Origin: Halorussus salinus
GTDB lineage: Archaea; Halobacteriota; Halobacteria; Halobacteriales; Haladaptataceae
Direction of reading: 5' to 3'
DNA length: 64,000 bases
Assembly: GCF_004765815.2 (NCBI RefSeq)
Contig: NZ_SBIS02000008.1
Location: forward strand, 372,001 to 436,000
Below the pieces are notes generated by a model. That model did no database searches and was not told where the DNA came from. It saw only the letters and a program-made list of their open reading frames with translations. Both the position numbers and the translations under genes were made by a program. Shown here in pieces: positions 33,725 to 36,269 of the stretch (its first letter is position 1; each line of letters opens with the position of its first letter).

Positions 33725-33738
33725 TTAGGTGTGCCTAA
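33725..33738. promoter_or_regulatory. Iron-regulator-type operator box 1 (TTAGG-N4-CCTAA)
   Basis: TTAGGTGTGCCTAA, a dyad of the form expected for DtxR/IdeR-family metal repressors. It lies 41 bp before the start of the iron-type binding protein gene, 22 bp upstream of a second copy. Confidence 0.75.
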
Positions 33739-33760
33739 AAACCGGAAGACGTTTAATGAT

Positions 33761-33774
33761 TTAGGGTAGCCTAA
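33761..33774. promoter_or_regulatory. Iron-regulator-type operator box 2 (TTAGG-N4-CCTAA)
   Basis: TTAGGGTAGCCTAA ends 4 bp before the start codon of the binding protein gene. Centre-to-centre spacing to box 1 is 36 bp. A repressor bound here would cover the transcription and translation start. This explains why the gene would be expressed only when iron (or manganese) is low. Confidence 0.75.
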
Positions 33775-33778
33775 ACGT

Positions 33779-35005
33779 ATGGAACGCGACGCTCACCGCG
33801 GCGGCGAATCGACGCGACGCGACTGTCTGAAGTACGGCGGAGCGATAGTCGGCGGGGGACTCCTCGCGGGCTGTGTCGGCGGGAGCGACGCCGGTTCGAC
33901 GGCGACGACGACCGGACAGGAGACGACGACCCGAGCCGAAACGACCGCGGCCGAGACGGAAACGGAGACCGAGACGGAGACCGCCGAGTCGGAGACGACG
34001 ACGGCGGACGACGGCTCCTACACGGTCTCGATGGCACCGGTCGGCGACGTAACCTTCGAGTCGGTTCCCGAAACGTGGGTCGCCAACAACGGCAGTTGGG
34101 CCGACATGGGCATCGCGCTCGGGCGCGAACCGCCGAAGGCGCTCTGGCTCACCAATCGGTACCACACCCAGTACTACGACGAGATTCCCGGCGTCTCGGT
34201 GGACAAGAGCGACATGGTGTCGCTCTACCAAGACGGCGTCAGCAAGGAACTGTTCTACGAACTCGACGCCGACGTTCACGTCATGGACCCGAACTTCCTC
34301 CAGAACCGATTCAAGGGCTGGGAGCAGGCCGACGTGGACGAGATAACGGAGAACGTCGCGCCGATGTTCGGCAACTGCATCTACGCCCAGCACTACCCGT
34401 GGCACTCCGACTACCGGTACTACACGCTCTACGAGGCGTTCGAGAAGCTGGCGACGGTGTTCGGAGCGACCGACCGCTACGAGGAGTTCTCGTCGCTCCA
34501 CGACCAGTTCCAGTCGAACCTCGATTCGGTCGTTCCGTCGGAGAGCGAGCGGCCGTCCGCCGCGGTCCTCTGGGGCGTCGGCGAGAAACCGGAGAAGTTC
34601 TACCCCTACATCATCGGCGAGGGCACGGGCTTCAAACATCTACGGGACCTCGGCGTCGGCGACGCGCTCGCGGACTCGGACGTGAAGGACTTCCACGGGA
34701 GTCGCGCGGCCATCGACCTCGAAACGCTACTGGAGGTAGACCCCGAGGTACTGATGCTCCGCGGGTACGAGGCCAAGAGCGAGCAGGAGTTCCGGAACAC
34801 CGTGGTCGAGTTCCTGAAGAACGACGACACGGCGAGCGCGCTCACCGCGGTACAGAACGGCGACGTGTACCGCGCGGGGAGCCTCTATCAAGGCCCCATC
34901 ACGAACCTCGTCCTCACCGAGCGGACCGCGGCGCAACTGTACGACGCGAGCGACGAACTGTTCGACCGCCAGCGCGTCGCCGACATCGTGAACGGGGAGT
35001 TCTGA
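33779..35005 (+). CDS. ABC importer substrate-binding lipoprotein, iron(III)/siderophore type
   Basis: 408 residues. A Tat signal with lipobox (TRRDCLKYGGAIVGGGLLAGC, Cys32) and a Thr/Glu-rich linker with repeated TE pairs (40-75) precede a two-lobed helical-backbone binding domain (PVGDVTFESVPETWVANNGSWADMGIALG..., LLEVDPEVLMLRGYEA). It should capture an iron complex outside the cell. Two TTAGG-N4-CCTAA boxes control it. The flavoprotein gene follows 2 bp later; no permease or ATPase gene is in the window, so it must use partners encoded elsewhere. Confidence 0.88.
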   Translation: MERDAHRGGESTRRDCLKYGGAIVGGGLLAGCVGGSDAGSTATTTGQETTTRAETTAAETETETETETAESETTTADDGSYTVSMAPVGDVTFESVPETWVANNGSWADMGIALGREPPKALWLTNRYHTQYYDEIPGVSVDKSDMVSLYQDGVSKELFYELDADVHVMDPNFLQNRFKGWEQADVDEITENVAPMFGNCIYAQHYPWHSDYRYYTLYEAFEKLATVFGATDRYEEFSSLHDQFQSNLDSVVPSESERPSAAVLWGVGEKPEKFYPYIIGEGTGFKHLRDLGVGDALADSDVKDFHGSRAAIDLETLLEVDPEVLMLRGYEAKSEQEFRNTVVEFLKNDDTASALTAVQNGDVYRAGSLYQGPITNLVLTERTAAQLYDASDELFDRQRVADIVNGEF

Positions 35006-35007
35006 CG

Positions 35008-36024
35008 ATGGGCGGAGCGTCCGACGATGGGACGGGAGCGAACGCGGACGAAGGTTCGGCGACGGACCTCCTCGACGAAACGACGGTCGTCGTGGTCGGC
35101 GGCGGACCCGCGGGCTGTTCAGCGGGCGTGTTCACCGGGCGGTACGGTCTCGACACGACCGTCTTCGACCGCGGGAACGCGGCGCTCCAGCGGTGCGCCT
35201 ACTTGGAGAACTATCTGGGCTTCCCGGCGGGAATCGACATCGACACCTTCCACGAGTTGATGCACGCCCACGCCGAGGAATCGGGGTGCGACATCGTTCC
35301 CGAGACGGTCGTCTCGGTCGAGCGCGACGGTGAGGACGGCGACGATGGCGACGACGATGATAACCGCGACGGCGACGACGAGTCGCGCTTCGTCGTGGAG
35401 ACCCAAGCCGGTCGGCGCGTCAGGACCGAGTACGTCGTGGTCGCGGCGTGGTACGACGGGTCGTATCTCCGGGCGCTCGGCGACGACGAGATGTTCGAAG
35501 AACACGAGCATCACGGCGAGGTCGAGGAGCGTTTCGACCCGGAGTACGCCGACGACGACGGCCGGACGCCGGTGGACGGACTGTACGTCGCGTCGCCCGC
35601 CGACGCGCGAAGCGCGCAGGCCATCGTCGCCGCCGGGAACGGCGCGCACGTCGCGCGCCACCTCATCGAAGACCACCGACGCGAGCAGGGCTACCCGGAA
35701 GGCGTCGCCGCTCACTACGATTGGCTCCGTCGGGACGCGGAGTTCTCCGGCGAGTGGGCCGACCGGGACCGCTGGCGCGAGTGGTTCGAAAACGAGGTCG
35801 GCGACGACTATGAGGTGGACGACGACCGACTGGCCGACCTGCGCGAGACATACATCGACCGCGAGTTCGCGACGCGCCGGACCGACGAGGAGGTCCGCGA
35901 ACAGTCCGAGCGGGGCCTCGAACGACTGGTCGAGATAGTCGGCACCGGACGACTCCTCGACGCGATGGACGACGAGACCGTCGCCGAGTACGCCGCTGAG
36001 GCGGTCGATTCGCGCGGCGAGTAG
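35008..36024 (+). CDS. FAD-dependent oxidoreductase (thioredoxin-reductase-like fold)
   Basis: 338 residues from the ATG at 35008. The FAD Rossmann motif is VVVVGGGPAGCSAGVFTGRYG (about 28-48) and a second FAD segment is VDGLYVASPADARSAQAIVAAGNGAHVAR. The redox CxxC of thioredoxin reductase is missing, and the space between the two FAD segments looks too short for a full NAD(P)H domain. An Asp-rich loop (GDDGDDDDNRDGDDE) is inserted near residue 110. A helical C-terminal domain of about 110 residues follows. Co-transcribed with the iron-binding protein, it may reduce or release chelated iron; that is inference. Confidence 0.8.
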   Translation: MGGASDDGTGANADEGSATDLLDETTVVVVGGGPAGCSAGVFTGRYGLDTTVFDRGNAALQRCAYLENYLGFPAGIDIDTFHELMHAHAEESGCDIVPETVVSVERDGEDGDDGDDDDNRDGDDESRFVVETQAGRRVRTEYVVVAAWYDGSYLRALGDDEMFEEHEHHGEVEERFDPEYADDDGRTPVDGLYVASPADARSAQAIVAAGNGAHVARHLIEDHRREQGYPEGVAAHYDWLRRDAEFSGEWADRDRWREWFENEVGDDYEVDDDRLADLRETYIDREFATRRTDEEVREQSERGLERLVEIVGTGRLLDAMDDETVAEYAAEAVDSRGE

Positions 36025-36125: not shown

Positions 36126-36269
36126 ATGGCACTGTGTCCGAACTGCGAGTCCGACATCAGCGAGTGGGCCGAGCGACTGGAGCAGGCAGACCGCGCCAGC
36201 ACGCCGAAAGTCTGGACCTGTCCGGACTGCGACGCCGTACTCGGCATCTCGGACTGGGGGTCGTCGTAG
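36126..36269 (+). CDS. Small zinc-ribbon protein (47 residues)
   Basis: A short frame with CPNC (residues 4-7) and CPDC (32-35), a clean two-knuckle zinc ribbon separated by a charged helix. It begins at the ATG at 36126 and ends DWGSS. It stands alone between the flavoprotein and a convergent Tat protein. Function unknown. Confidence 0.75.
   Translation: MALCPNCESDISEWAERLEQADRASTPKVWTCPDCDAVLGISDWGSS

Follow-up and report, generated by a model that had tools for sequence, protein, structure and literature searches.

A candidate FAD-only ferric-siderophore reductase encoded with a binding lipoprotein behind paired operator boxes in Halorussus salinus

Organization of the locus

The analysis covered a 64,000-nucleotide stretch of the Halorussus salinus genome, referred to here as the window, which contains a two-gene operon encoding a substrate-binding lipoprotein (SBP) and a flavoprotein related to thioredoxin reductase (TrxR). 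The features of the operon are listed below by window position.

33725..33738, no strand assigned: distal operator box TTAGGTGTGCCTAA, exact match, 36 bp before the proximal box
33743..33757, + strand: core promoter between both boxes, with BRE-like CGGAA (33743-33747) and TATA-like TTTAAT (33752-33757), from comparison of the sequence with a 75-promoter consensus
33761..33774, no strand assigned: proximal operator box TTAGGGTAGCCTAA, exact match, starting 18 nt before the start codon
33779..35005, + strand: siderophore-type ABC substrate-binding lipoprotein, 408 aa (Peripla_BP_2, 69 bits against a cut-off of 27.5)
35008..36024, + strand: TrxR-like FAD-only flavoprotein, 338 aa, candidate ferric-siderophore reductase (ATG at 35008; partial Pyr_redox_2 match)
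35077..35178, + strand: first FAD segment, residues 24-57, with the GGGPAG Rossmann motif and Asp54 (best Pyr_redox_2 stretch 26-80)
35194..35196, + strand: Cys63, just before the NYxGFP loop (Cys in 62/66 family members)
35560..35685, + strand: closing FAD segment, residues 185-226, which superposes on TTHA0370
35719..35724, + strand: Asp238-Trp239, invariant (66/66 members)
35725..36021, + strand: C-terminal helical tail, residues 240-338 (helices in the full model)

The flavoprotein gene begins 2 nt after the stop codon of the SBP gene. Export and lipidation signals were read by eye in the lipoprotein as RRDCLKYGG and LLAGC, which we take to be a twin-arginine motif and a lipobox, respectively, and its family and context suggest that it would bind iron. 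No permease or ATPase gene lies beside the operon, and the FecBCD/Fhu arrangement, with these parts in the same operon, is not found here. Further 3', at 36126-36269, lies a 47-aa zinc-ribbon-like open reading frame (ORF), which was seen in two copies of this same locus and in no fetched relative.

Paired operator boxes bracket the promoter

The first-pass annotation of this DNA had described two TTAGG-N4-CCTAA boxes on either side of the promoter. This was confirmed, both boxes being exact, and the same arrangement was observed in relatives, in a 75-promoter set as well as in loci from 20 genera. The pattern matched twice in the window, and the same two matches were returned when one mismatch was allowed. 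Shuffled windows (n = 100) held a mean of 0.14 boxes, with two or more in only 1 of the 100, and the genome as a whole contained 22 exact boxes as against 4 for a reversed-pattern control. Similar controls in relatives gave 63 boxes versus 3 reversed in the 20-genus sample (exact matches, 42 versus 1), and 38 versus 8 across 14 Haloferax loci and four named loci. A chance origin of the boxes was ruled out by these shuffles and controls.

The promoter set drew on the window plus 51 fetched loci and comprised 75 distinct promoters, each with a box (at most one mismatch) located 15-25 nt ahead of the start codon; only ORFs with 150 codons or more were considered. In 61/75 of these the proximal box started 18-19 nt before the start codon. 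A second upstream box, for which no selection criterion had been set, was present in 54/75; the spacing between the two boxes was 34-37 bp in all 54 pairs and most commonly 36 bp (38/54). The consensus between the boxes reads CGAAA followed by TTATAT, presumably the BRE and TATA elements. The window promoter fits this pattern, with a spacing of 36 bp and a box 18 nt before the ATG. As its TATA-like element lies 22-27 nt before the ATG, the sequence suggests a transcript that is leaderless or nearly so, and a repressor sitting on both boxes would be expected to cover the promoter from either side.

The operon resembles the haloarchaeal iron regulon

A genome scan for the box, proposed in the first-pass annotation, placed 14 of the 22 exact boxes beside iron-transport, siderophore or suf-like genes. 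Nine were located at SBP genes, three at a siderophore locus, one at an SBP_bac_6/BPD_transp_1 pair and one at an ABC ATPase whose sufC-like identity is a resemblance by eye. The remaining eight, which have no evident tie to iron, were found at DUF7552 genes (three boxes) and at five single genes, encoding a DUF5059-plastocyanin protein, a sugar-dehydrogenase-like lipoprotein, an RGP-like protein, a lipoate-ligase-like product and a small twin-arginine protein. In addition to two FecCD permeases, the genome encodes 10 Peripla_BP_2 proteins. Eight of these, the window SBP with its seven full-length paralogs, form one family, and each has a box at its start; no box was found in the fetched flanks of the remaining pair (C1:582620 and C1:923793).

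The first-pass annotation had also expected the missing permease and ATPase to be encoded elsewhere. FecCD and ABC_tran proteins were indeed located on another contig, at about C1:211656-213613, and one of the two FecCD permeases sits in a box-rich cluster. The gene order there (C1:205-215 kb) is SBP, aldo-keto reductase, SBP, SBP, SBP, permease, ATPase, SBP, and the closest paralog of the window SBP (about 65-68% identity) adjoins the permease. IucA/IucC domains at C1:199376 and C1:203583 directly precede this cluster, and three boxes at C1:195.8 kb adjoin an aminotransferase and a glutamine-synthetase-like gene. Fe_dep_repress matches above the Pfam threshold confirmed three proteins of the DtxR family in the genome, of which one also has a FeoA domain.

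The operon looks like a member of the known haloarchaeal iron regulon. In the FerR/Idr/TroR (DtxR-family) regulon of Leyn and Rodionov (2015), fhu-type transporter genes lie behind the regulon signal, as they do here (PMC11349517, PMC11218638); the likeness is one of genes, drawn through the citing papers rather than through motif letters, and no contrary feature was seen. The ferR signal precedes all fhu genes in Haloferax volcanii, and upon iron starvation one of its two fhu permeases rose 12.7-fold and 5 of its 11 binding proteins rose more than 4-fold (PMC11349517). That species also combines many SBP paralogs with few permeases, 11 and 2 (PMC11349517), much like the eight box-linked SBPs and the single permease in their cluster observed here. 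We regard it as highly probable that the operon serves iron-regulated uptake.

The flavoprotein keeps both FAD segments and has no NAD(P)H domain

The first-pass annotation had characterized the flavoprotein as keeping both FAD segments while having no CxxC and seemingly no room for a NAD(P)H domain, and all three points held. The GGGPAG motif is present, with no substitution at G31, G33 or G36 in 66 aligned family members (1-5 rows gapped) and D54 in 64/66. The closing segment reads Y193-V-A...Q204...AGNGA, in which T187, Q204, A209, G210 and G212 occur in 66/66. Taken over the family, little or no variation was seen in the FAD motif, the NYxGFP loop, Q204, AGxG or D238-W239. CxxC was found in 0/66 members. 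In thioredoxin reductases the FAD segments are separated by an NADPH domain of more than 100 residues; here the gap is only about 40 residues, no NAD(P)H domain occurs anywhere else in the protein, and the predicted model aligns with the FAD-only protein TTHA0370. A plain thioredoxin reductase was ruled out by the missing CxxC together with the missing NADPH domain. The FAD site is also altered, lacking the ATG and Gly-Asp motifs usual in thioredoxin reductase, which leaves FAD binding probable rather than assured. The SIP domain (PF04954) was not among the flavoprotein's Pfam matches up to E = 1.

A paralogous FAD-only group of about 250 aa shares the Asp-Trp pair and lies mostly without nearby boxes (L068:4423-5187; G000:C1:410578-411204). 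Its members (n = 10) are shorter than the flavoprotein, with Asn at the Cys63 position in 9/10 and, at the Asp-Trp pair, Asp in 10/10 and Trp in 9/10. In another Halorussus genome (G012), the flavoprotein gene L031:1370-2181 matches in two frames, which may reflect a broken gene or an assembly error.

The full AlphaFold model, a single chain without FAD, had a mean pLDDT of 76 and a pTM of 0.75, and it predicts a fold in which the thioredoxin-reductase FAD domain carries a helical tail and the NAD(P)H domain is missing. The tail predicted alone was of low confidence (pTM 0.45), and the whole-model structural comparison barely tests it. Residues 24-241 superpose on TTHA0370 of Thermus thermophilus (PDB 2cvj, 2ywl; "thioredoxin reductase related protein") with Z 22.5 and rmsd 2.5 over 177 residues, and TTHA0370 was also ranked top by phmmer. 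It has the same FAD domain devoid of an NADPH domain, but at 180 aa lacks the C-terminal helical tail of the haloarchaeal flavoprotein. The ferredoxin-dependent flavin thioredoxin reductase of Gloeobacter (6xtf, 5j60) shares the fold and is among the closest structures, its Z of 21.9 (rmsd 2.6, 182 residues) counting as tied with TTHA0370, since rows less than 1 Z apart were treated as equal. This enzyme has a thioredoxin-reductase fold and takes electrons from ferredoxin rather than NADPH (PMC12796991); unlike the haloarchaeal flavoprotein, however, it keeps a second domain and CxxC, and reduces thioredoxin.

Distribution and gene neighborhoods of the flavoprotein family

Of 391 haloarchaeal genomes, 231 had a member of the family at E ≤ 1e-75, spread over 58 of the 86 genera; the 160 genomes with none at this threshold must therefore release iron in some other way. 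As IucA/IucC was found in 111 of the same 391 genomes, at least 120 holders of the flavoprotein do without it, pointing to uptake rather than synthesis. A siderophore-synthesis enzyme was ruled out on these same counts, 231 to 111.

Within the window's own family of organisms, boxes were present in 19/20 fetched loci, the exception (L049) lying at a contig edge. A simple ORF caller missed the flavoprotein gene in 2 of 20 relatives (L046 and L054), both of which were recovered by tblastn. A second sample, with one locus per genus from 20 genera chosen by profile score, likewise had boxes in 19/20, the exception (L163) being at a contig end. In this sample SBP, permease or ATPase genes occurred near the flavoprotein gene on the same strand in 17/20 loci (a permease in 6), and the flavoprotein gene often stood between those for an SBP and a permease. 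At three loci (L154, L162 and L166) it stood alone behind a box with no transport genes. Clustering of the neighbors at 43 loci returned a permease at 19, a HEAT-repeat-like protein at 10 and DUF7552-type proteins at 6, the largest cluster being uninformative by itself as it merged several families; no ferredoxin or other donor gene was recognized in this clustering. The HEAT-repeat-like gene often precedes the operon, as at L172, where it lies upstream of the SBP-flavoprotein pair, and at the 10 clustering loci.

Within the genus Haloferax, boxes were found in 14/14 loci and the order flavoprotein-permease-ATPase in 8. In an RNA-seq study of Hfx. mediterranei, the NAD(P)/FAD-dependent oxidoreductase E6P09_02485 fell by 4.06 log2 units together with the adjoining iron permease and ATPase and with siderophore genes, the condition being denitrification and not iron (PMC11218638). 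Its gene order matches that of the eight Haloferax loci, the match resting on the annotation and gene order given in that source rather than on sequence.

A candidate reductase for imported ferric-siderophores

A 2025 paper counts SIP and FSR as the two families of enzymes that reduce Fe(III)-siderophores in the cytoplasm (PMC11965169). SIP and FhuF-type enzymes carry out the reaction proposed here for the flavoprotein, but belong to different families. Profile searches of the 391 haloarchaeal genomes gave no match above cut-off for either SIP (PF04954; one sub-threshold match) or FhuF_C (PF11575). Both profiles found their E. coli and C. glutamicum controls, although a diverged reductase could escape them, and the absence applies to these two profiles and not to IruO-type enzymes. 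For the release of iron from imported siderophores, a step for which neither textbook family was found in these 391 genomes, the flavoprotein offers a single testable gene; it carries no annotation beyond "FAD-dependent oxidoreductase" or "thioredoxin reductase", and its function was not named in the one literature collection searched.

The first-pass annotation had put the flavoprotein forward for the reduction or release of imported iron complexes, and the transporter context together with the lack of SIP and FhuF_C matches supports it as a candidate for that role. From this gene context and absence, we consider that it probably performs ferric-siderophore reduction. A functional parallel is IruO, the TrxR-like FNR of S. 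aureus and B. cereus, which has a TrxR fold without CxxC, is controlled by Fur, acts in iron acquisition including that from hydroxamate siderophores, and reduces ferric-siderophores (PMC10294844). IruO, however, retains a full NAD(P)H domain, of which the haloarchaeal family has none; if the proposal is correct, the flavoprotein would reduce ferric-siderophores with no domain of its own for nicotinamide binding. TrxR-like enzymes cover their flavin with a C-terminal residue (PMC10294844), and the invariant Trp239, shortly after the last FAD helix, is by its position a candidate for such a residue.

The following account is proposed, to which we assign a probability of roughly 0.6 as a whole: an uptake operon, repressed by iron, in which the flavoprotein would reduce ferric-siderophores after their import with electrons from a protein donor such as ferredoxin. 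An iron-loaded repressor of the DtxR family would occupy the two boxes, one upstream of the BRE/TATA elements and the other between TATA and the start codon, and shut the promoter; when iron is scarce it would leave them. The lipoprotein would then capture a ferric-siderophore outside the membrane and hand it over to a permease and an ATPase whose genes lie elsewhere in the genome and which several binding proteins presumably share. In the cytosol, the flavoprotein would reduce Fe(III) to Fe(II) within the imported complex, and in that state the iron would be released by the siderophore. A protein donor would reload the flavoprotein, as it has no NAD(P)H domain, and ferredoxin is our best guess for this donor.

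Other roles for the flavoprotein were weighed against ferric-siderophore reduction. It might be an electron-transfer enzyme of iron starvation serving a different target, such as heme breakdown, Fe-S assembly or a flavodoxin-like carrier, and be merely co-regulated with uptake. That it can stand alone behind a box fits such a role, as does the fact that IruO-type enzymes serve heme oxygenases besides siderophores (PMC10294844), but the transporter genes near it in 17 of 20 genera, its frequent position between SBP and permease genes, and the permease recurring at 19 of 43 clustered loci, where no heme enzyme was recognized, make this unlikely. Improbable to a greater degree is an action on the siderophore itself, by oxidation or ring opening, rather than on the iron. 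Enzymes acting on small molecules do have this fold, and HlmI and DepH were among the structural matches; these two rely on CxxC, however, which the flavoprotein lacks, and the 120 or more holder genomes without IucA/IucC argue against a tie to that siderophore of the cell's own. We place equally little weight on a non-catalytic flavin- or iron-sensing accessory of the transporter: the altered second FAD motifs and the missing NAD(P)H domain would agree with lost catalysis, but the FAD Rossmann residues, NYxGFP loop and Asp-Trp pair are almost invariant across 66 members.

Ferric-siderophore reduction thus remains the preferred role, and the flavoprotein, as a widespread variant of the TrxR-like reductases, is the best present candidate for haloarchaeal iron release. 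A broader proposal is more tentative and, on balance, somewhat doubtful: that this FAD-only TrxR relative represents an additional type of ferric-siderophore reductase in the cytoplasm, fed by ferredoxin instead of NAD(P)H, with the Asp-Trp of its tail capping the flavin, and replaces SIP and FhuF across haloarchaea.

Other genes associated with the boxes

Several further genes were observed at boxes or among uptake genes. An aldo-keto reductase gene lies between siderophore SBP genes in two genomes, identified by Pfam at L067:6448-7413 and by resemblance at L059:5375-6466. A box precedes a gene whose 822-aa product combines DUF5059 with a plastocyanin domain (L074:4338-6806). DUF7552/DUF7551 proteins were repeatedly encoded behind boxes or near uptake operons (L075:4409-4855, L078:4310-5251 and the six neighbor-clustering loci), and are candidates for an iron-starvation protein.
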